Positions 19,788-58,622 of a DNA stretch of 64,000 nucleotides are shown here, one piece after another. The DNA lies in the NCBI RefSeq assembly GCF_016820245.1, contig NZ_JAFCAR010000001.1:496001-560000 (forward strand), written 5' to 3'. Both the position numbers and the translations under genes were made by a program. This DNA is from Jannaschia sp. Os4 (lineage in GTDB: Bacteria; Pseudomonadota; Alphaproteobacteria; Rhodobacterales; Rhodobacteraceae). Each line of letters opens with the position of its first letter. The stretch's first letter is position 1. The notes under the pieces were generated by a model. It made no database searches. It had not been told where the DNA came from and saw only the letters and a program-made list of their open reading frames with translations.

Positions 19788-20233
19788 GCGAGGAGGACGC
19801 CCTCGCCTCGGCGCTGTTCTCCGAGATGCTGGTGGCCGAGCACCTCGTCCGCGCCCGCGTGGCGCGGGTGCTGCCGAAGGGCATGGAGCTGAGCCATTTC
19901 GCGGTGCTCGACTACCTCGCGCAGTCGAAGGAGGAGCGCACGCCCGCCGACCTCGCCCGTGCGTTCCACCTGACGCGGGGGGCGATGACCAACACGCTCG
20001 CCAAGCTGGAATGGGCGGGCCACGTCCACATCCGGCCCGACTGGGACGACGCGCGGCGCAAGCGCGTGGCGATCTCCTCGTCGGGCCGCGCCGCGCGGGA
20101 CTCCGCGCTGGCCGCCCTGCGCCCCGTGCTGACCGGGGCGGTGCGCGGGATCGGGGCCGACAAGGTCCGCGCCGCCCTGCCCGTCCTGCGCGAGGTCCGC
20201 GCGCGGTTCGGGGAGGTCCCGCCGAAGGACTAG
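19784..20233 (+). CDS. MarR-family transcriptional regulator
   Basis: Winged-helix repressor of about 149 residues. The GTG at 19784 is chosen because it overlaps the preceding stop as GTGA; an in-frame GTG 12 bases earlier is possible. The helix-turn-helix is in TPADLARAFHLTRGAMTNTL (about residues 55-75), followed by the wing region HIRPDWDDARRKRVAIS. It resembles regulators of aromatic or stress responses, but the ligand is unknown. It is the last gene of the comF-grxC-nitrilase-MarR run and ends convergently, overlapping by 4 bases the M20 amidohydrolase gene on the other strand. Confidence 0.88.
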   Translation: MSEEDALASALFSEMLVAEHLVRARVARVLPKGMELSHFAVLDYLAQSKEERTPADLARAFHLTRGAMTNTLAKLEWAGHVHIRPDWDDARRKRVAISSSGRAARDSALAALRPVLTGAVRGIGADKVRAALPVLREVRARFGEVPPKD

Positions 20234-21408
20234 GCGAGCCGCGCCACCGCGTCGGCCAGCACCTCCAGCCCGAGGCGCAGGTCCGCCGCGGCGGTGTCCT
20301 CCGCGAAGTCGTGGGAGATGCCCCCGATGGAGGGCGCGAAGAGCATGCCGACGGGCAGGACGCGGGCGACGTTGGTGGCGTCGTGCAGCGCGCCGGAGGG
20401 CATCCTGCGCCAGCGGTCCGGGGCATGGCGGGCGGCCGCGGCGGAGAGGGCGCCGACCAGCCCCGCGTCCATCGTGGTGGGCGGCAGGGCGGCCGTGCCG
20501 GAGACCTCGAGGGCGAGGTCGCCCCTCGCCTCGTCCAAGGCGGCGCGCACCGCCGCCTCCATCGCGTCGAGCCGCGCCGCCGCGGCGTCCCGCCACTGCA
20601 CCGTGAAGCGCGCCCGCCCCGGCACGGCCGAGGCGGCGTTGGGATGCAGCGCGACGTGGCCCACCGTCCAGACGCTGTCCGGCGTGACGAGCGGCGCGAG
20701 GGCCGCGTCGATGGCGGCCTTGGCCCGCACCAGCCCGGAGAGCGCGTCGCGGCGCAGGCGCATGGGCGTGGTGCCCGCGTGGTTCTGGTCGCCCGTCAAC
20801 GTGACGGTGACTTGGCGCAGGCCGACGATGGCGGTGACGACGCCCACCGCCTCGCGGGCCGCGTCGAGGACGGGCCCCTGCTCGATATGCGGCTCGAGGT
20901 AGTGGGTGAAGCGGTCGGCCGCGGGGGCCTCGCCGGTGGCGGGGAGCGCGCGGCGGGCCTCGGCGAACGGGGTGCCGTCGAGGTCCGTTAGGGCATCAGC
21001 CTCCGCCAGGCTCAGCGCGCCGGACCAGATCTCCGACCCGGTGGTCGCGCCGAAGCGGCCCTCCTCGTCCTGGAAGCTGACCACGGAGACGGGCAGCCCC
21101 GCCCGCGCGCATTCCAGCCCGCAGGCCACGCCCCACGCGCCGTCGAGCCAGCCGCCCTCGGGCTGGGTGTCGGTGTGCGAGCCGATCAGCACGGGGCCGC
21201 CGAGGCCCCAGACGTTGCCCGCGCCGTCGATGGTGGGCGCGAGGCCCGCGTCGGCCATGCGGTCCGCCAGCCACAGCCGCGCCTCGACGTCCGCGGCCTC
21301 GAAAGCGCGGCGCCGGACGCCCATGCGCCCGTCGCGGGTGAGGGCACCGATCGTGCGGAGGTCGTGGAGGTCGGCGAGGTGGCGGGCGGGGTCAACGGCC
21401 AAAGACAT
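20230..21408 (-). CDS. M20-family Zn amidohydrolase (allantoate/N-carbamoyl amino acid type)
   Basis: Cytosolic zinc hydrolase of 392 residues from the hydantoinase/carbamoylase group of M20 peptidases. Metal ligands and landmarks are VLIGSHTDTQPEGGWLDGAW (about residues 72-91), FQDEEGRFGATTGS, PHIEQGPVLD, the bridging NHAGTTPM and a C-terminal SGALHDATNVA. Relatives cleave allantoate, ureidoglycolate, beta-ureidopropionate or N-carbamoyl-L-amino acids. No purine or pyrimidine catabolic neighbours are present to choose among these. Its start lies inside the 3' end of the upstream HNH endonuclease gene (17-base overlap), which suggests cotranscription. Confidence 0.9.
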   Translation of the reverse strand: MSLAVDPARHLADLHDLRTIGALTRDGRMGVRRRAFEAADVEARLWLADRMADAGLAPTIDGAGNVWGLGGPVLIGSHTDTQPEGGWLDGAWGVACGLECARAGLPVSVVSFQDEEGRFGATTGSEIWSGALSLAEADALTDLDGTPFAEARRALPATGEAPAADRFTHYLEPHIEQGPVLDAAREAVGVVTAIVGLRQVTVTLTGDQNHAGTTPMRLRRDALSGLVRAKAAIDAALAPLVTPDSVWTVGHVALHPNAASAVPGRARFTVQWRDAAAARLDAMEAAVRAALDEARGDLALEVSGTAALPPTTMDAGLVGALSAAAARHAPDRWRRMPSGALHDATNVARVLPVGMLFAPSIGGISHDFAEDTAAADLRLGLEVLADAVARLA

Positions 21409-22267
21409 GCTCCCTGTGCCAAGCGAGCGCAGTATCGGAGGGACGGTCCCGCAGTCGGTCAGGCGCGCGCAGGACCATGTCGGGCACGAAGAGGCGGCGC
21501 GCGGTGTCTGCGTCGACCTTGTTATGGCTCACGAGAATTCGGTGGGTCGCGGGCTCCACGCCGATCAGGCCGCGGTCGAACATCCAGTGCAGTGTGCCGG
21601 ACAGGGCGATCCCGTTGCGGACCACGTCCGCGCCGCCCTCGGCCACGGGGACGATATGCGCGGCCTGCACCTCGGCCCGCCCACCCCCGTTCCGCAGGCC
21701 CAGCCCCGATATGGCACAGCGCCTGCCGTAGGCTCGGCGGACCATGCGCCCGAAGGCCGCGTCGCGTGCGGAACGAGAGGAGAGGGCGGTGCGGCGATCG
21801 GCGCCCGGGAAGGGTGACTGACGGTCGCCGAACGCACGGAGCGGGCCTGTGCGGGGGTGGGCGTCCGCGTCGGGGACCTCCGCAAGCCCGGCGTCCACGA
21901 TGGCCGCGAAGTCCGCTGGGGGGAGGCGACGGACGGCCAGCATGTTGTTCCCGGCGCGGGGGGCGAGCGTGCTCTCGTAGAGCGTGCCATCGGGGCGGGC
22001 GCGGGGAACGAGGGTCTCGAAGTCGAGCGTCTCTCCTGGGACGAGGTCCGCGTAGAAGTGGTCAGGCCGGACCGGGTCGGGGCGGATGGCGGCGATCTTG
22101 GCGACGTGGGTGTAGCCGAACGCGCCGCGCCGCCCTTCGTAGAACACCACCCAGTCGCCGATGCAGTCGGAGAGGGTGCCGAGATACTGCTTGGGGAAAT
22201 GATAGTGCGCACCATGCGCGTCGTTGTAGATCGACGTCGGGTTCTGGATCAGGACAGCGTGCGGCAT
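21392..22267 (-). CDS. HNH endonuclease with PUA/EVE-like N-terminal domain
   Basis: Predicted DNA endonuclease, 291 residues. The start MPHAVLIQNPTSIYND is chosen because upstream in-frame codons add no recognisable sequence. Residues 1-105 (GDWVVFYEGRRG, THVAKIAAI, HFYADLVPGETL) look like a compact beta-barrel of the PUA/EVE/SRA type, a fold used to read modified bases. The C-terminal HNH_2 domain is clear: RRAYGRRCAISGLGLRNGGG, VQAAHIVPVAEGG, and NGIALSGTLHWMFDRGLI with conserved catalytic histidines. The layout suggests a modification-dependent restriction enzyme, but this is inference. It is downstream of the reductive dehalogenase gene on the same strand. Confidence 0.8.
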   Translation of the reverse strand: MPHAVLIQNPTSIYNDAHGAHYHFPKQYLGTLSDCIGDWVVFYEGRRGAFGYTHVAKIAAIRPDPVRPDHFYADLVPGETLDFETLVPRARPDGTLYESTLAPRAGNNMLAVRRLPPADFAAIVDAGLAEVPDADAHPRTGPLRAFGDRQSPFPGADRRTALSSRSARDAAFGRMVRRAYGRRCAISGLGLRNGGGRAEVQAAHIVPVAEGGADVVRNGIALSGTLHWMFDRGLIGVEPATHRILVSHNKVDADTARRLFVPDMVLRAPDRLRDRPSDTALAWHREHVFGR

Positions 22268-22330
22268 CGGCGCGAGAATGGCGCGTCGGTCGGTGGGGGC
22301 CAAGGGGGACGGCCATTGGTCCCGGCTGCT

Positions 22331-25255
22331 CTAGTCGATCTCGACCGTCCCGCCCTCCTCCGCCGCGCGGGAGCGGCAGGTGATCATCCAGTCCGCCCGC
22401 TCCGCTTCGGACAGCACGTGGTCGCGGTGGTCCACGTCGCCTGCGACCACCCGGCGGCGGCAGACGCCGCAGAGGCCGTCGGCGCACTTGACGTCGACGG
22501 ACAGGCCCGCCGCGATCATCGCCTCGGCGGCGGTCTCGTCGGCGCCCACCTCGATCCGGCGCCCGCCCGCGATCAGGGTGAAGGGGCGGGACGGGCGCGC
22601 CTCCTCCTCGGGTGGCGCGAAGAGTTCGACGGACACGGGGATGCCGCGCGCGGCCCCCGCCGCCTGCGCCGCGCGCATCAGGGCGTCGGGGCCGCAGGCA
22701 TAGGTCTGCGTCTTGGCGTGGGTGAGGGCGGCGAGGTCGGCGCGGGTGCCCTCGTCGCTGACATGGAGGGTGGCGGAGGCGGCCCACGGGGCGGCCGCGA
22801 TCTCGGGCCACAGCGCGGCGCGGGCGCGGGTTGGAACGGCGTAGTGCAGCGCGAAGGGGAGCCCGGCGCGGTGCAGGGCCCACGCCATCGGGATCATCGG
22901 CGTCACCCCGATCCCGCCGCCGAGCAGCAGCGTGTGAGGCTGGGGATCGAGGGGGAAGTGGTTGGCGGGGGGCGCCGCGAACACGCGGCGGCCCACGGCG
23001 AAGATGCGGTGGAGCAGGGTGGAGCCGCCGCGGCCGGCGTCCTCGCGCAGCACGGCGATGCGGTAGGCGGCGCCGTCCTCGGGGTCGCCGGTCAGCGAGT
23101 AGGGGCGCAGGTATTCGGGCGCGACCATAAGGTCGACATGGGCGCCGGGATCCCATGCGGGGAGGTCGGCCCCGGTGGGGTCGCGCAGGGTCAGCAGCAT
23201 CACGTCGCCGCGCCGCTCGGCCTCCGCCACCTCCAGGCGCAGGACGGGCGACGCGGAGGCGGGGGGCACCCGGTCGAGCACGGTCTCGTCGCCCGCGTCG
23301 CGGCGGCGCTTGTACTCCGCCACCGAGGGCATGGCGCGGTGGGCGGCGATGCCCGCCTCGCGGTCCATCGGGTAGGGATAGGGGGCCGGGGGCGGCGTGA
23401 GGGGCGCGGGATAGACGGCCATCGTCTGGTCCTCGGCGCGGACCTCCAGCCCCGGGGAGATGCCGCGCGCGTTGACCGGCTTGTCGGTGGGGGCGTAGCC
23501 GCCGTCGGGCTGCAGCTCGAGGTCCCACCACCACTTCTTGGACGGGTCGATGCCGCCCCGTCCCAGCGCGTCGTCGAGGCGCTGGAGGGCGGGCGCGAGC
23601 CGCGGCATCTTCATCGCCGCCCAGCGGAACGGCTTCTCGGCGAAGATGCCCTGCAGGTTCCACGGGCAGGTCTTCATGCACCGCCCGCACATCGCGCCGC
23701 CCTCGGTCGTGATGCGGTAGGTGGCGCATTTCTGGCTGTCGGACTTCCAGATCTCGTAGCCGTTGAACATCGTCTTCGGCCCCGCCGTGATGGCGCCGGA
23801 CGGGCATTCGCGGGCGCACTTGTTGCAGCCATCGCAGAAGGTCTGGAGGCCGAAGTCGATGGGCCGGTCGTGGGCCAGCGGCAGGTCGGTGGTGACCACG
23901 CCGGACTTGAGCCGGGGGCCGAGGAAGGGGTTGAGGATGACCTCGCCGATGCGGCTGACCTCGCCCAGCCCGGCGAGCAGGAGGAGGGGCGGCTGCAGCA
24001 CCTCGCCGTCGAGGACGGTGTGGGCCTTGGCGGAGTAGCCGAGGCGGCGGATGTGGCGGGCGAGGACGCTGCCCAGGAGCGAGAAGCGCAGGTAGGCGCG
24101 CATCGACTGCGCCACGCTGATCCAGTCGTCGCCCGAGGCGCCCTCCATCGTCTCCCAGCCTTGGTCGACGATCATGCTGATGGCGTGGGGATGGGGCGGG
24201 TCGATCGGGTCGCCCGCCGCGTCGTGGGAGTACCACGCCCAGTCGGGGCAGCGGCTGATCCCCACCGCGTCGAGGCCGAGGAAGTAGCTGGCCGCCTTGA
24301 CGTTCTCCGCCGCCGCCTGCGGGTCGAGCGGCTGGGGCGGCCCCTCGGGGGCGCCGTCCTGCAGCAGCACCAGCGCGCCCAAGAGGCGGCGCTGGGCGGC
24401 GGAGGGGGCGGCCTTGCGGACGTAGTGCCCGGCGGTGGCCTTGCGCTGCACCTTGGGGCCGAGGTCGCCGAACTGGGCGCGGGCGAAGAGGTCGGCGCGC
24501 TTGGGCACGCGGGGGACGTTGGGCTCGTCGATGTAGGTGGTGGGCGCGTCGACGCGGCGGAGCGATTCGAAGGGGTGGGGGCCGAGGTGGTAGGGGCGGC
24601 GGGCGTAGGGGTCCTTGGACGCCGTCTCCATCCGGGCCTCGGCCAAGGGGAGCGTCGTGGTGACGGCGGCCAGCGTGACGCCATCGGTCGGCAGGCCCCC
24701 GCGGCGGGCCAGTCCGGGGAGGTCGACGTCGTGCGTCGTGGGGGTGTGGGCGGTGGCGTCCCAGCCCAGCACGCGGAGGTAAGACGCGAGGACGACTGCG
24801 ATTTCCGAGGCGCGGATCGCGCCGCGGGCGGCGGTGGCGTCGGCGATCCAGTCGTGGCCCGGCTCATCCGTGCGGGGCGGGCGGGGGTCGCGGATGGCGA
24901 GGATCAGGGCGTGGCCGTGATGGGCGGAGACGGCCTCGGTCGCCGCAGATTCGCGCAGGTCGGCCATGATGAGGTCGATGCCCGCCGCGAGCGTCTTGGT
25001 CTGCCGATCGAGCAGGGCGGTGAGCGCGCCCATGTCGGGATTCCGCACGGGAGTCCCGTGGGTTCCGGCGGCGGGAACGGTGGCGGCGAGGTCGGCGTCG
25101 GAGAAGCGGGCGAAGGCGAGCAGGTGGCGCGCGCGCTCGGTCGGGTCGTCGGGGATGCGGGAGCGGACGGGGTTGGCGGGGCCGTGGCGGATCGCGTCCA
25201 TCATGGCCTGCGCCTCGGTCGTGGCATGGGCGATGGAGTGGGGGTGCGGGGCCAT
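22331..25255 (-). CDS. Self-sufficient reductive dehalogenase (RdhA fused to FMN/[2Fe-2S] NAD(P)H reductase)
   Basis: Predicted cobalamin-dependent enzyme that removes halogen from aromatic compounds. ATG 25255 gives 974 residues; a TTG at 25315 is possible. Residues about 300-560 form the RdhA core. They carry a [4Fe-4S] motif CDGCNKCARECP (C474, C477, C480, C484) and a second set at C510, C523, C526 and C530. Tyr388, Lys450 and Arg514 have exactly the 62- and 64-residue spacing I recall for NpRdhA Tyr426, Lys488 and Arg552. Residues about 680-974 match phthalate dioxygenase reductase: FMN motif RPYSL (717-721), nucleotide motif GGGIGVTPM (about 779) and [2Fe-2S] cysteines 924, 929, 932 and 960. 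No Tat signal or rdhB is present, so it is of the cytosolic catabolic type. QueG is excluded by the length and the fused reductase. Confidence 0.92.
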   Translation of the reverse strand: MAPHPHSIAHATTEAQAMMDAIRHGPANPVRSRIPDDPTERARHLLAFARFSDADLAATVPAAGTHGTPVRNPDMGALTALLDRQTKTLAAGIDLIMADLRESAATEAVSAHHGHALILAIRDPRPPRTDEPGHDWIADATAARGAIRASEIAVVLASYLRVLGWDATAHTPTTHDVDLPGLARRGGLPTDGVTLAAVTTTLPLAEARMETASKDPYARRPYHLGPHPFESLRRVDAPTTYIDEPNVPRVPKRADLFARAQFGDLGPKVQRKATAGHYVRKAAPSAAQRRLLGALVLLQDGAPEGPPQPLDPQAAAENVKAASYFLGLDAVGISRCPDWAWYSHDAAGDPIDPPHPHAISMIVDQGWETMEGASGDDWISVAQSMRAYLRFSLLGSVLARHIRRLGYSAKAHTVLDGEVLQPPLLLLAGLGEVSRIGEVILNPFLGPRLKSGVVTTDLPLAHDRPIDFGLQTFCDGCNKCARECPSGAITAGPKTMFNGYEIWKSDSQKCATYRITTEGGAMCGRCMKTCPWNLQGIFAEKPFRWAAMKMPRLAPALQRLDDALGRGGIDPSKKWWWDLELQPDGGYAPTDKPVNARGISPGLEVRAEDQTMAVYPAPLTPPPAPYPYPMDREAGIAAHRAMPSVAEYKRRRDAGDETVLDRVPPASASPVLRLEVAEAERRGDVMLLTLRDPTGADLPAWDPGAHVDLMVAPEYLRPYSLTGDPEDGAAYRIAVLREDAGRGGSTLLHRIFAVGRRVFAAPPANHFPLDPQPHTLLLGGGIGVTPMIPMAWALHRAGLPFALHYAVPTRARAALWPEIAAAPWAASATLHVSDEGTRADLAALTHAKTQTYACGPDALMRAAQAAGAARGIPVSVELFAPPEEEARPSRPFTLIAGGRRIEVGADETAAEAMIAAGLSVDVKCADGLCGVCRRRVVAGDVDHRDHVLSEAERADWMITCRSRAAEEGGTVEID

Positions 25256-25458
25256 GGGGCGGGTGTGGCACGGGCCGGGGCCGGGGGCGAGGGCGCCGAG
25301 CGCGGCGCGGGTCAAGGGGGACTACATCTTGTGGTTCGGGGTGCGTTCGGTGGGGGGGCGCCCCCCGTGCACCCCCCGTGCATACACCGTACATACGCAC
25401 GTTCATACGCGGGGCGTTCATCTGTCGTTAACCATCGGTGGAAAGTTCTTGGGGGCGT

Positions 25459-25481
25459 GATGGGGTGGAACCCCATCCTAC
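25459..25481 (-). repeat. GTAG-type REP hairpin, 5' of the RAYT gene
   Basis: Palindromic unit GATGGGGT/ACCCCATC followed by CTAC, i.e. GTAGGATGGGGTTCCACCCC-type read on the minus strand. The GTAG foot next to a stem-loop is the mark of REP sequences recognised by RAYT transposases. It lies 28 bases before the RAYT start codon. Confidence 0.85.
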
Positions 25482-25509
25482 GTTAACCTTTCGGTGCGAC
25501 GGTCGCTGG

Positions 25510-26127
25510 ATGACGGCGTATCGGCGGCTGCGGGTTCCGGGCGGGACGTACTTCTTCACCCTCGCGCTGGAGCGGCGGGGGGCGTCCACGCTCGTGGATC
25601 ACATCGACCTATTGCGGGCCGCGTGGGCGGCGACGGCGCGGGAGCGGCCGTTCGTGACGGAGGCGGTCGTGGTGCTGCCGGACCATCTGCACGCGGTGTG
25701 GCGGCTGCCGGAGGGGGATGTGGATTTCTCGACGCGGTGGGGGGCGATCAAGGCGCGGTTCACGCGGGGGGTGCGGGCGCGGGTGGAGGGGATGGGTGGC
25801 GACGAAGATGGGGTGGAACCCCATCCTACAGGTGCGCGTGGCGGAACCCGTAGGATGGGGTTTCACCCCATCATGGATATACCGAACCCCCGCGCGATCC
25901 CATTCCGTCCCACCACCCCGTCCAAACGGCGCAAGGGCGACGCGGGACTGTGGCAGCGGCGGTTCTGGGAGCATTGGTGCCGCGACGAGGCCGACGTGGC
26001 GCGGTGCGTCCGGTACTGCTGGGTCAACCCGGTGAAGCACGGGTTCGTCGCGCGCCCCGCCGATTGGCTGTGGTCGTCCATCCACCGCGACATCCGTGTG
26101 GGACGGGTCGATGCGGGGTGGTCGTAG
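25510..26127 (+). mobile_element. REP-associated tyrosine transposase (RAYT, TnpA_REP)
   Basis: Single-copy HUH-type transposase relative (Y1_Tnp family) that binds and cuts REP hairpins, 205 residues from ATG 25510. The HUH motif is in VVLPDHLHAVWRLP (about residue 60). The catalytic tyrosine is in RCVRYCWVNPVKHGFV, followed by PADWLWSSIHR. Codons for about 22 residues in the middle (DGVEPHPT and RRMGFHPIM) are two inverted REP units that keep the reading frame. The stop codon TAG comes from another REP at the 3' end. The insert lies between the HUH and Tyr regions and may or may not be tolerated. Upstream bases give only a weak ribosome-binding site. Confidence 0.88.
25807..25872. repeat. 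Inverted REP pair (BIME) inside the RAYT reading frame
   Basis: Two units face each other. GATGGGGTGGAACCCCATCC plus TAC lies at 25807-25829, and GTAGGATGGGGTTTCACCCC plus ATC at 25850-25872, with 20 bases between them. Both are read through in frame by the transposase gene as DGVEPHPT...RRMGFHPI. This is a classical head-to-tail-inverted REP doublet inserted in a coding sequence. Confidence 0.85.
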
Positions 26128-26146
26128 GATGGGGTTTCACCCCATT
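26124..26146 (+). repeat. REP hairpin supplying the RAYT stop codon
   Basis: GTAGGATGGGGTTTCACCCC plus ATT. The TAG within its GTAG foot (26125-26127) is the stop codon of the RAYT gene, so the original 3' end of the gene may have been altered by REP insertion. Confidence 0.85.
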
Positions 26147-26171
26147 ATGGCGGGGCGTGGGTGGTGGGGAA

Positions 26172-26194
26172 GATGGGGTGGAACCCCATCCTAC
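26172..26194 (-). repeat. REP hairpin at the right edge of the RAYT locus
   Basis: Same 23-base unit as at 25459 (GATGGGGTGGAACCCCATCC plus TAC), inverted relative to the one at 26124, with 25 bases between them. It ends 6 bases before the stop codon of the NYN-domain gene. Confidence 0.85.
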
Positions 26195-26200
26195 GCTTGC

Positions 26201-26893
26201 TTAACCTGCTTGTCGCGGATTGGGACACATCGATCTGATGTCATCGATATGTTCGTGTAACTCAGGAAAGACAGGATTCCACATCGGATCAAGGATGATC
26301 TCCACACCGTGACGTCGAGCTAGTTTTGCGGCAGGGACGAAATCATAGTCTCCTGCGATGAGGACCATCTTCGATACATGTCCCTGCCTAGCGATGTCAG
26401 TGATGTCCGAACCCAGCTTCACGTCTACTAGACGTTGCTTTGCATAGAAGACGAAGTCGTCGTCTGTGAGGTCCTCCCACTGCCTCTCCTTCTTTCGAAG
26501 GGCTTTCAACGCCTGCGGCCTAAGCTGCCAGTCACCGTTCTTGTCCAGCTGTCCTAAGCGAAGGGCGAAGGACGGAGTAGTTCTAAGCGCACTATGCCAA
26601 TCAACTCGGAAGACTGTCTGTGTCTCTTTGCCGAAGTGCTTGGTTTTCCCAGAAATGGGGTATGTTCGGTTTTCGGTGAAAGGCGGACAGTCGTAGAAAT
26701 AGACACGGAGTAGATCGTGGAAACGCTGCCCGCGCCCAAGGGGGTGATGAGGCGGGCGCTCATACATGTGGGCATGGCAGTACAACTCAAGCTGTCGAGC
26801 AACCACCGCCGCATCGGTTGGCTGACCGCCGGAGAGACTTGTAAATCGCTTTAGGAAGAACGAACCGTCGACGAAGACAACCGCTCTTGACAT
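26201..26893 (-). CDS. NYN-domain (PIN-like, DUF88) putative ribonuclease
   Basis: Predicted metal-dependent RNase of the LabA/NYN family, 230 residues. The start MSRAVVFVDGSFFLKRF places the first catalytic Asp at the end of strand 1, as in the family. The second acidic cluster is KLGSDITDIARQ (about 160). The third is MVLIAGDYDFVPAAKLARR (about 180), equivalent to the SGDSDF motif. Between them is a long basic insert (ALRKKERQWEDLTDDDFVFYAK). Base composition is clearly lower in GC than neighbours and codons are unlike the host's, so the gene was probably acquired. NYN proteins act in RNA decay, phage defence or toxin roles; which applies here is unknown. Confidence 0.8.
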   Translation of the reverse strand: MSRAVVFVDGSFFLKRFTSLSGGQPTDAAVVARQLELYCHAHMYERPPHHPLGRGQRFHDLLRVYFYDCPPFTENRTYPISGKTKHFGKETQTVFRVDWHSALRTTPSFALRLGQLDKNGDWQLRPQALKALRKKERQWEDLTDDDFVFYAKQRLVDVKLGSDITDIARQGHVSKMVLIAGDYDFVPAAKLARRHGVEIILDPMWNPVFPELHEHIDDIRSMCPNPRQAG

Positions 26894-27150
26894 AATAAAC
26901 CCCAGCCAGTGAAGGCTACGTGAGCCACACCATGCTGGGGTTTGCAATGTTGCTCGAGAGATGGGCCGTTGCAGTATCGCAAGCAAGCATCTGCTGCAGC
27001 AAGAATTCTACACCCCCTGTCTCACGACAGGGGGTGTAGAGCCAGATTGGTTGACTTGTCAAGTCCTCAGGGCCCTTGTTTCTATAGAAGCAGAGGAAAT
27101 AGTGTGGTACCCTCTTGCTGCACAAAATTACCTTGCAGCAAGGCTGGACC
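26894..27150. promoter_or_regulatory. AT-richer divergent region with several inverted repeats
   Basis: This 257-base stretch separates the divergent NYN and winged-helix genes. It holds a 10-bp inverted repeat AAACCCCAGC/GCTGGGGTTT (26897-26906 and 26934-26943) next to the NYN start. It also has a 14-bp perfect stem TCTACACCCCCTGT/ACAGGGGGTGTAGA with loop CTCACG (27007-27040). TGCAGCAAG occurs at 26995 and 27134, with an inverted copy at 27114-27122. A TTGACT at 27051 could serve as a -35 box, but no well-spaced -10 follows. Operator sites or a small structured RNA are possible. Confidence 0.5.
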
Positions 27151-29728: not shown

Positions 29729-31024
29729 TCAGACGTAGCGGTTGACGATGGCCTCCAGCCGCTCCTGCCGCCCCGAGCGGGGCCGCGGCTCGATCCCCTC
29801 GGCCTCGACGCGGGCGGCGGCCTGCTCCAGCGTGCCGGACAGCATCGCGGCGGCGGCGTCCTCGTCCCAGCCCGCGTAGCGCTCAGCCCGCAGATCCTCC
29901 AGGACGCCGTCCTCCAGCATCGCGTGGGCGGCCCGCAGGCCGCGGGCGCAGACGTCCATCGCGCCCACATGGGCCGCCACGAGGTCGATGGGATCGAGCG
30001 ACTGGCGCCGCAGCTTGGCGTCGAAGTTGGTGCCGCCGGTGGTGAAGCCGCCCGCGCGGAGCACCTCGTAGTAGGCGAGCGCCACCTCGGGGACGGAGTT
30101 GGGGAACTGGTCCGTGTCCCAGCCCGACTGGTAGTCGTTCCGGTTCATGTCGATGGAGCCGAAGATGCCGAGGGCGGAGGCCAGCGCCAGCTCGTGCTCG
30201 AAGCTGTGGCCCGCGAGGATGGCGTGGCCCTGCTCGACGTTGACCTTCACCTCCGCCTCCAGCCCGAAGTCCTTGAGGAAGCCGTAGACCGTGGCGACGT
30301 CGTAGTCGTACTGGTGCTTGGTCGGCTCCTGCGGCTTGGGCTCGATCAGGATGGTGCCGTCGAAGCCCACCTTCCGGGCGTAGTCGACCACCATCGACAG
30401 GAACCGGCCCGCCTGCTCGCGCTCGCGCTTGAGGTCGGTGTTGAGCAGCGTCTCGTAGCCCTCGCGCCCGCCCCAAAGGACGTAGTTCTCGCCGCCCAGG
30501 CGGTGCGTGCCGTCGATGCAGGCCTTCACCGTCGCGGCGGCGTAGGCGAACACGTCCGGGTCGGGGTTGGTGGCCGCCCCCGCCATGAAGCGCCGGTGCG
30601 AGAAGAGGTTGGCCGTGCCCCAGAGGCACTTGGTCCCGGTCTCCTCCATCCTGCCGCCGATGTGGTCTATCATGGCTTCGAGGTTGGCGCGGGACTGCGC
30701 GAAGTCGTCGCCCTCGGGGCGGATGTCGGCGTCGTGCCAGCAGAAGTAGGGCTGGCCGAGGATGGCGAAGAGGTCGAAGGCCGCGTCCGCCTTGGCCCGC
30801 GCGTGGTCCATGGTGTCGCCGAACCACGGGCGCTCGAAGGTCTGGCCGCCGAACGGGTCGCCGCCGGGCCATGCGAAGCCGTGCCACCACGCCACCGCGA
30901 AGCGCAGGTGCTCGGCCATGGTCCGCCCGCCCAGCACCTCGTCCGCATCGTAATGGCGGAAGGTCGTGATCCCGTCCCCGTCCGGGTCGAAGCGGATCGG
31001 CGCGATGCCCTCGAAATAGCCCAT
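29729..31024 (-). CDS. xylA: Xylose isomerase
   Basis: Interconverts D-xylose and D-xylulose (and glucose/fructose) with two Mg2+ or Mn2+ ions. The 431 residues are typical of class II enzymes. The active site is visible: [12 protein letters not shown] (catalytic His near residue 97), [18 protein letters not shown] (metal Glu), [15 protein letters not shown] and [19 protein letters not shown]. There is no xylB kinase, xylose transporter or XylR regulator beside it, so the rest of the xylose pathway must lie elsewhere. It is divergent from the acyl-CoA ligase at 31.2 kb. Confidence 0.96.
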
Positions 31025-56787: not shown

Positions 56788-57171
56788 ATGGCTTGGACCT
56801 ACGACGACGCCAACATCTTCGCCCGCATCCTGCGCGGTGAGATCCCCAACAGGACGGTGGCCGAGACGGACCACACCCTCGCCTTCGAGGACATCCAGCC
56901 GCAGGCCCCCGTCCACGTGCTCGTCATCCCCAAGGGCCGGTACGTCTCCTTCGACCACTTCGCCGCGGAGGCGTCGGACGCCGAGATCGCCGACTTCCAC
57001 CGCGTCGCCGCGCGCGTCTGCCGGGAGCGGGGGATCGCCTCGGACACCACCGAGGGCTTCCGCGCCATCACCAACGCCGGCGCCCACGGGGTGCAGGAGG
57101 TGCCGCACTACCACCTCCACCTGATCGGCGGGCGGCCCCTCGGGCGGATGCTGGCGAAGGCCGACGCATGA
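56788..57171 (+). CDS. HIT-family nucleotide hydrolase (HinT-like)
   Basis: Histidine-triad protein of 127 residues that hydrolyses AMP-linked amides or related nucleotides. The triad [18 protein letters not shown] lies at the C-terminus (about residues 107-124). The N-terminal [20 protein letters not shown] and [20 protein letters not shown] are typical HinT segments. CCCGCC precedes the ATG, so the ribosome-binding site is weak. Its stop overlaps the start of betB (ATGA). Confidence 0.93.
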
Positions 57172-58622
57172 GGTTCCAGCCGCCCGCGAGCCACTTCGTC
57201 GACGGTGCCCGCTTGGAGGACGAGGGCGGCGCGCCCTTCGACGTGACCTATCCCGCCACGGGCGAGGTCATCGCGCGTCTGCACGCCGCCACCCCCGCCG
57301 TGATCGACGCCGCGCTCGGGGCGGCCAAGCGGGCGCAGGCCGGGTGGGCCGCCCTGACCGGCACCGAGCGGGGCCGCGTCCTGCGCCGCGCCGCCGAGAT
57401 CATGCGCGATCGCAACCGCGACCTGTCGATCCTCGAGACCCACGACACCGGCAAGCCGCTGCAGGAGACGCTGGTCGCCGACGCCACCTCCGGCGCGGAC
57501 GCCTTGGAGTATTTCGGGGGGCTGGCCGCGACGCTGACGGGCGAGCACATCCCGCTGGCGGGGGGCGACTTCGTCTATACCCGCCGCCGCCCCTTGGGCG
57601 TCTGCGTCGGCATCGGGGCGTGGAACTACCCCACCCAGATCGCCTGCTGGAAGGCCGCGCCCGCGCTCTGCGTGGGCAACGCGATGGTGTTCAAGCCGTC
57701 CGAGACGACGCCGCTCTCCGCGCTCAAAGTGGCGGAGATCCTGGTCGAGGCGGGCGCGCCCCCCGGCCTCTTCAACGTGGTGCAGGGCATGGGCGAGGTG
57801 GGCGGCGCGCTTGTGACGGACCCGCGCGTGGCCAAGGTCTCGCTCACCGGCTCGGCGCCGACGGGGCGGAAGGTCTATGCGGCGGCGGCGGACGGCATGA
57901 AGCACGTCACGATGGAGCTGGGCGGCAAGTCGCCCCTCGTGATCTTCGACGACGCCGACCTCGAGGACGCCGTGGGCGGCGCGATCCTCGGCAACTTCTA
58001 CTCCTCGGGGCAGGTCTGCTCGAACGGGACGCGCGTGTTCGTGCAGCGCGGCATCAAGGAGCGGTTCCTCGCCCGCCTCGTGGAGCGGGTGAAGGGGGCC
58101 GTGATCGGCGACCCGATGGACGAGGCCACGAACTTCGGCCCCATGGTGTCCGAGCGGCAGGCGGAGATCGTGCTGGGCTACGTCGCCAAGGGCATGGCCG
58201 AGGGCGCGCGGCTGGTCCACGGCGGCACCCGGCTCGACCGGCCCGGCGTGTTCGTGGAGCCCACCATCTTCGCGGACGTGACCGACGGCATGACCATCGC
58301 GCGCGAGGAGATCTTCGGACCCGTGCTCTCCGTGCTCGACTTCGACACGGAGGAGGAGGTCATGGCGCGCGCCAACGCCACCGACCTCGGGCTGGCGGCG
58401 GGGGTGTTCACCCGCGACCTCGCGCGCGCGCACCGCGTGGCGGCGGGGTTCGAGGCGGGGACCTGCTACATCAACACCTACAACCTCGCCCCCGTGGAGG
58501 CGCCGTTCGGCGGGTCCAAGATGTCGGGCGTGGGTCGGGAGAACTCCAAGCTCGCCGTCGAGCACTACAGCGAGATGCAGGGCATCTACGTGGCGGCGGG
58601 CCCCGTGGAGGCACCCTACTAG
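57168..58622 (+). CDS. betB: Betaine-aldehyde dehydrogenase
   Basis: NAD+-dependent aldehyde dehydrogenase of 484 residues that makes the osmoprotectant glycine betaine. The catalytic Glu is in [20 protein letters not shown] (about residue 250). The nucleophilic Cys is in [18 protein letters not shown] (about 284). The BetB-like [20 protein letters not shown] and [17 protein letters not shown] are present. No betA, betI or choline transporter gene adjoins it. A general aminoaldehyde dehydrogenase is possible. It overlaps the HIT gene by 4 bases and is followed by tRNA-Arg. Confidence 0.88.

Follow-up and report, generated by a model that had tools for sequence, protein, structure and literature searches.

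A 64,000-nucleotide stretch of the Jannaschia sp. Os4 genome (contig NZ_JAFCAR010000001.1, positions 496,001 to 560,000; hereafter the window) carries on its minus strand, at 25255..22331, an open reading frame of 974 amino acids and a stop. The translated protein matches the reductive dehalogenase model TIGR02486 (180.8 bits, above the cut-off of 160.35), the dehalogenase NpRdhA (4ras, E 5e-145) and phthalate dioxygenase reductase (2pia, E 1.4e-40), and because of these matches the reading frame is not due to chance; a genome-wide TIGR02486 search agrees for the fused gene (162.2 bits, cut-off 160.35). On this basis the predicted gene product is a reductive dehalogenase core fused to a phthalate-dioxygenase-reductase-like (PDR-like) module carrying flavin mononucleotide (FMN), NAD(P)H-binding and [2Fe-2S] parts. 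An earlier note on this DNA had proposed such a fusion, and its domain order, cofactor ligands and pocket residues are confirmed by the TIGR02486, NpRdhA and PDR matches together with a position check. The gene and its parts are as follows.

22331..25255, minus strand: fused dehalogenase gene, placed by its translation and by the TIGR02486, NpRdhA and PDR matches; alternative starts are an in-frame TTG at 25315 and in-frame Met codons at 25204 and 25201
24611..25255, minus strand: vestigial (non-cofactor) duplicate of the B12-binding domain, about residues 1-215, trimmed compared with relatives (weak second TIGR02486 match, NpRdhA alignment)
24920..25078, minus strand: about residues 60-112, region with a retained insert of about 42 residues relative to NpRdhA, from the spacing of two NpRdhA alignments of a fused relative
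24671..24688, minus strand: residues 190-195, where about 12 residues of a vestigial 'NPYLGxRFG' loop are gone (13 residues between anchors)
24638..24643, minus strand: residues 205-206, where about 25 residues of the linker from vestigial domain to core are gone (32 residues between anchors)
23336..24610, minus strand: catalytic B12 and [4Fe-4S] core, about residues 216-640 (TIGR02486 and NpRdhA matches)
24092..24094, minus strand: codon of Tyr388, aligned with NpRdhA Tyr426, putative proton donor
23906..23908, minus strand: codon of Lys450, aligned with NpRdhA Lys488
23804..23836, minus strand: cluster motif C474/C477/C480/C484 (position check)
23714..23716, minus strand: codon of Arg514, aligned with NpRdhA Arg552
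23666..23728, minus strand: cluster motif C510/C523/C526/C530 (position check)
22598..23254, minus strand: FMN/NAD(P)H-binding part of the PDR-like module, about residues 668-886, with RPYSL at 717, GGGIGVTPM at 779 and C854 in CGP
22334..22588, minus strand: C-terminal plant-type [2Fe-2S] domain, about residues 890-974, with C924/929/932/960 (Fer2, 33.1 bits, above cut-off)

Sequence, domain order, ligands and pocket residues can be read directly from the translation and its alignments. All twelve cluster cysteines, and the starts of RPYSL and GGGIGVTPM, lie at the residues that the earlier note had given. The N-terminal half gives a second, weak TIGR02486 match (C1:520737-521150, 21.3 bits) and NpRdhA aligns across residues 1-656 of a structure model of the protein, while in the PDR-like module Pfam NAD_binding_1 stays under its cut-off (17.2 of 22 bits). 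The protein was compared with its relatives in an alignment of 117 rows, in which both [4Fe-4S] cluster motifs are present throughout. Three rows (L152, L154 and L155) are fragments of genes that the alignment contains anyway, and the tree and identity counts accordingly use 114 rows; the conserved-column count uses 112, also leaving aside L114 and L117. The species collection holds 452 stretches that encode a relative at E <= 1e-3, and as the best 80 of these (56-63% identical in their best segment) were retained the set leans to closer relatives. Twelve loci identical to another across the compared stretch had been collapsed beforehand, and the sequence sets A1 and A2 are 51 and 47 sequences chosen out of those fetched.

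The proposed active site aligns closely with that of NpRdhA. A constant offset of 38 residues had been claimed for Tyr388/426, Lys450/488 and Arg514/552; the alignment shows it to be exact for these three and also for Ser384/422 and Met385/423, the offset of Phe257/291 being 34 because gaps intervene. All six residues are identical in 117 of 117 rows. Six other pocket positions are unlike NpRdhA (F290L, K307A, F310Y, P311V, A419V and N452V), and at five of them the window protein has the residue most frequent among the aligned rows, L256 being the second commonest at its position (17 of 117 rows, against Met in 98). In NpRdhA, A419 lines the second-bromine pocket and K307, aligned here with A273, contacts a carboxylate in one complex (PMC7565698).

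The window protein is a further member of an enzyme class that has already been purified and characterised and that is common in its family. JtRdhA of Jhaorihella thermophila (WP_104007082; Fisher et al. 2023) is described as a purified NADPH-dependent enzyme that debrominates and deiodinates ortho-halophenols, with 3,5-dibromo-4-hydroxybenzoate as its best substrate and with the chlorinated analogues tested acting only as inhibitors, without turnover (PMC10463259). By the same description it shares with the window protein the domain order, the lack of a twin-arginine (Tat) signal, the duplicated domain, the NpRdhA pocket residues and the PDR fusion, with merely minor conservative changes reported near the second-bromine site, and it fits the studied marine Rhodobacteraceae relative mentioned in the earlier note (PMC10463259). 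It differs in having been purified with shown activity, and the likeness is taken from the published description. BhbA of Comamonas sp. 7D-2 (plasmid pBHB, WP_015585978; row L114) has the same fusion and is 49% identical, but it adjoins protocatechuate 4,5-dioxygenase genes on its plasmid, retains an N-terminal arm that is missing here. Its six side-pocket residues (F, S, S, V, S, A) differ from those of the window protein at five positions. Over the RdhA part the window protein is 38-39% identical to NpRdhA of Nitratireductor pacificus (PDB 4ras, 6zxu) and has the same catalytic residues, but NpRdhA has neither the PDR module nor the insert within about residues 60-112, and it is reported to accept both chlorinated and brominated substrates (PMC7565698). 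The self-sufficient P450s of the CYP116B type (PDB 6laa, 6kbh) have the same PDR-type C-terminal electron module, with a P450 (heme) domain in place of the B12 core.

We consider it quite probable that the protein is a cytosolic, self-sufficient catabolic reductive dehalogenase with a JtRdhA-type mechanism and with natural bromophenols as its likely substrates. In electron path, substrate class, halogen preference and oxygen tolerance it would resemble JtRdhA and NpRdhA. NAD(P)H would deliver hydride to FMN in the C-terminal module, from which single electrons would travel via the [2Fe-2S] centre and then both [4Fe-4S] clusters to base-off cobalamin. An ortho-halophenol would be held by Lys450, Arg514 and Ser384 while the reduced cobalt takes the halogen, and Tyr388 would serve as proton donor with its Tyr-Lys/Arg pair. 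The enzyme most likely acts like JtRdhA on ortho-bromo- and ortho-iodophenols with NADPH; the dehalogenation of phenols proposed at first thus stands by analogy, while its chlorophenol part was dropped since JtRdhA left the tested chlorophenols unconverted. Natural bromophenols such as 3,5-dibromo-4-hydroxybenzoate would be likely substrates, and the product 4-hydroxybenzoate may then pass to PobA and on to protocatechuate 3,4-dioxygenase. Self-sufficient dehalogenases are tools to debrominate phenols in air and are probably active in the natural turnover of marine bromophenols.

The host has genes for this downstream route and for part of B12 synthesis. Elsewhere in the genome lie a 4-hydroxybenzoate 3-monooxygenase (pobA; 630.2 bits, cut-off 538.7) and the beta chain of protocatechuate 3,4-dioxygenase (pcaH; 341.9 bits, cut-off 296.4), and because of these two genes debrominated 4-hydroxybenzoate could be consumed by the host. 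A cobalamin riboswitch lies 2.8 kb ahead of a cobN gene (1490 bits) and on its strand, and a host supply of B12 is plausible from such genes. Homogentisate dioxygenase is present in addition, which says little on the substrate of the dehalogenase. A cytosolic location agrees with the N-terminus, where no twin-arginine motif was visible when the translation was read by eye, without a signal-peptide program, as had been claimed. The predicted lack of an rdhB partner also held at the locus, the rest of the genome not having been searched: 27 bp separate the gene from the next one and 182 bp from the divergent gene upstream, scant space for an rdhB of the usual length.

What distinguishes the window copy from its relatives is the state of its vestigial half, which went unnoticed in the earlier note. 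It is the sole copy without an N-terminal arm (FSxxxRPVHLGPYPLERL) among the 114 aligned. Its vestigial loop and linker are shorter than in any other copy, and its end branch is longer. The 'NPYLGxRFG' loop, with 13 residues between anchors compared with 21-26 in the other 116 rows, looks from its surroundings like the vestigial counterpart of the core's N442PFLGPRLK450, which bears the catalytic lysine. The interdomain linker spans 32 residues here and 36-58 in the other 116 rows, and a short linker of 36-45 residues is also found in ten other rows. The insert typical of the fused enzymes relative to NpRdhA is kept (56 residues between anchors; 60 in 113 and 59 in 3 of the 117 rows). An arm-like sequence that was found in the window is the core's own copy, from residue 219 onward, and because of this likeness the arm is suggested to belong to the ancient duplication.

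All three missing stretches thus lie in the vestigial half. Divergence is spread more widely, the mean identity to the other rows being third lowest of 114 in the vestigial half (0.502, median 0.664), the FMN/NAD part (0.506, median 0.679) and residues 536-640 (0.656, median 0.771), with residues 216-535 near normal (0.796, median 0.830; 11th lowest of 114). No other of the 114 rows has so low a ratio of vestigial to core identity (0.631, median 0.801); because the FMN/NAD part is about equally diverged, however, the deletions alone are special to the vestigial half. Among columns conserved in at least 98% of the other rows the window copy keeps 320 of 337, and its 17 deviations are the most of the 112 rows (median 1). 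The nearest neighbour on the tree (L080, 6001-9000) has 14 such deviations and a short linker (39) and keeps the N-terminal arm. Our literature searches turned up no report of the Jannaschia gene or its losses, though such a report may still exist.

The region ahead of the gene is also unusual. An in-frame stop lies 22 codons before the ATG at 25255, no obvious ribosome-binding-like sequence was seen by eye ahead of this ATG, and a GAGG-like stretch was noted by eye ahead of the Met codons at 25204/25201. The divergent gene upstream is as follows.

25438-26190, divergent from the dehalogenase gene: REP-associated tyrosine transposase (RAYT) gene (NF047646, 164.3 bits, cut-off 80), beginning 182 bp upstream of the dehalogenase gene

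Five REP-like palindromes (GATGGGGT...ACCCCATC) lie at 25459-26190, around and inside this gene, giving 10 hits on both strands at <=3 mismatches compared with 0.13 expected. Identical copies were found at other places in the genome as well (22 strand hits in total, 7 of them here, and 0 for the reversed control). Because of the stop before the ATG, the lack of an obvious ribosome-binding sequence and of a promoter-like site, and the RAYT/REP element upstream, the 5' end of the dehalogenase gene may have been replaced.

Several observations weigh against reading the locus as a working bromophenol dehalogenase. PF13486 (Dehalogenase) is absent from the matches of the protein at E <= 1 and from those of its genome; as a genome-wide probe it also matched none of 14 control genomes, and because it matched neither, TIGR02486 was used instead. 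Across the cluster region the structure model is weak, with means of 40-60 per block at residues 471-540. BluB, which would account for the lower B12 ligand, stays under its cut-off in the host genome (26.5 of 150 bits), and the fit of the pocket differences to the JtRdhA report comes from a set of related fused enzymes and not from JtRdhA directly. A scan for sigma-70-like promoters, which covers that type only, found none in 22250-25500. By alignment-column count the arm missing here is present in 113 of 114 rows, the [2Fe-2S] domain has the lowest mean identity of the 114 (0.525, median 0.674), and no row has a longer end branch (0.54, median 0.15), the tree being a FastTree run rooted on L117 in which an amino-acid composition check flags the window row and L135, so that placement and branch length are rough. 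The promoter result, the missing arm and the diverged [2Fe-2S] domain are shared with a different explanation, namely that the copy is decaying: promoter, ribosome-binding site and arm would have been lost in a rearrangement possibly involving the upstream REP/RAYT element, and the gene would be becoming a pseudogene. The in-frame stop, the nearby RAYT gene and palindromes, the unmatched number of deviations at conserved columns and the low identity of the PDR-like module, the vestigial half and the C-terminal part of the core all fit such decay, and at 72% G+C an open frame by itself is weak evidence. Nevertheless, most conserved columns are retained, residues 216-535 are close to the median in identity, all 12 cysteines and six active-site residues are kept, and the third-position GC of 0.96 is like that of most neighbours measured. 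In addition, the nearest row L080 has an arm yet also many deviating columns, so that rapid divergence in this lineage is not necessarily a sign of decay. On balance we favour a functional, pared-down enzyme, and judge decay unlikely, if far from negligible.

Two other identities for a functional protein were weighed. The enzyme might act on a substrate other than a bromophenol (a chlorophenol, iodophenols only, or a non-halogenated compound), as sequence cannot reveal the substrate, the neighbours are not conserved and give no pathway, and the NpRdhA lysine reported to contact a carboxylate in one complex (PMC7565698) is replaced here by A273. The polar catalytic residues are, however, the same as in NpRdhA and are reported to be conserved in JtRdhA, both of which act on ortho-bromophenols, and we regard this alternative as improbable. 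A QueG-like epoxyqueuosine reductase fused to a reductase would belong to the same class III B12 family, but it scores only 24.5 bits against a cut-off of 200; the far higher score of the dehalogenase model, the NpRdhA match, the duplicated domain and the NpRdhA pocket largely refute it, leaving it with a vanishingly small probability. Within the preferred reading of a functional dehalogenase, a narrower proposal is that the copy is a naturally minimised self-sufficient enzyme that has shed the arm, the vestigial counterpart of the lysine loop and much of the linker, all catalytic and cluster residues being kept. This proposal is tentative and we hold it to be rather doubtful. If true, it would suggest a stepwise erosion of the vestigial half once the fusion supplies its own electrons, and would offer a natural design for a smaller bioremediation enzyme. 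As all three clear losses sit on that side, the window copy offers a natural way to ask how far the vestigial half is required.

The fused gene is widely distributed. Such fusions had been called rare, which the family and genus counts contradict: 112 of the 295 family genomes in the sample have a match of at least 850 bits, and in 111 of them the stretches reach residue 910 or beyond and show the fusion, the match in G102 stopping at residue 727. Many of the family stretches begin near residue 211 because the vestigial half was matched apart. Within the genus 12 of 20 genomes, the host of the window included, have a match above 1100 bits running to residue 973 or 974, and 8 of 72,556 plasmid records, including the BhbA plasmid, have a place covering 80% or more of the query. 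The 12 Jannaschia copies, assigned to the genus by identical named loci, fall in five or six separate places on the tree, and because of this scatter the gene has probably been moved or lost repeatedly.

Downstream of the dehalogenase gene lie two further genes.

21392-22303, minus strand: HNH gene, 27 bp after the dehalogenase gene; the C-terminal part of its product resembles phosphorothioated-DNA restriction enzymes (75.2 bits, under the cut-off of 180)
20230-21408, minus strand: M20-type amidohydrolase gene, next after the HNH gene

Neither has a match in any relative's locus (E <= 1e-15, at least half length), and in the neighbour scan of 114 loci no neighbour cluster was shared by more than 8. 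These loci include the window's own piece (L111) and identical copies still uncollapsed, and the flanks are partial, with about 6 kb on both sides in 55 of the 80 loci L001-L080 and about 1.5 kb only in L082-L110. An operon reading is unsupported as the neighbours are not conserved in the relatives' loci, though with partial flanks a rare link could be missed. A gene at 57168-58622, aldehyde-dehydrogenase-like by eye, has relatives in 8 loci and was set aside as belonging to a large common family. A single gene is shared with L080, the xylose-isomerase-like gene at 29729-31024 (72%). Among the relatives, a pobA-like hydroxylase gene flanks the fused dehalogenase gene in L060, L061, L064 and L117, the last having a gene annotated pobA at a distance of about 3.4 kb on the opposite strand. 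For those strains the flanking hydroxylase gene hints that the substrate is halogenated 4-hydroxybenzoate. Beyond the RAYT gene, the NYN-domain gene at 26201-26986 looks recently acquired because its third-position GC is only 0.569, the dehalogenase gene and six of the eight other genes measured lying at 0.957-0.981.
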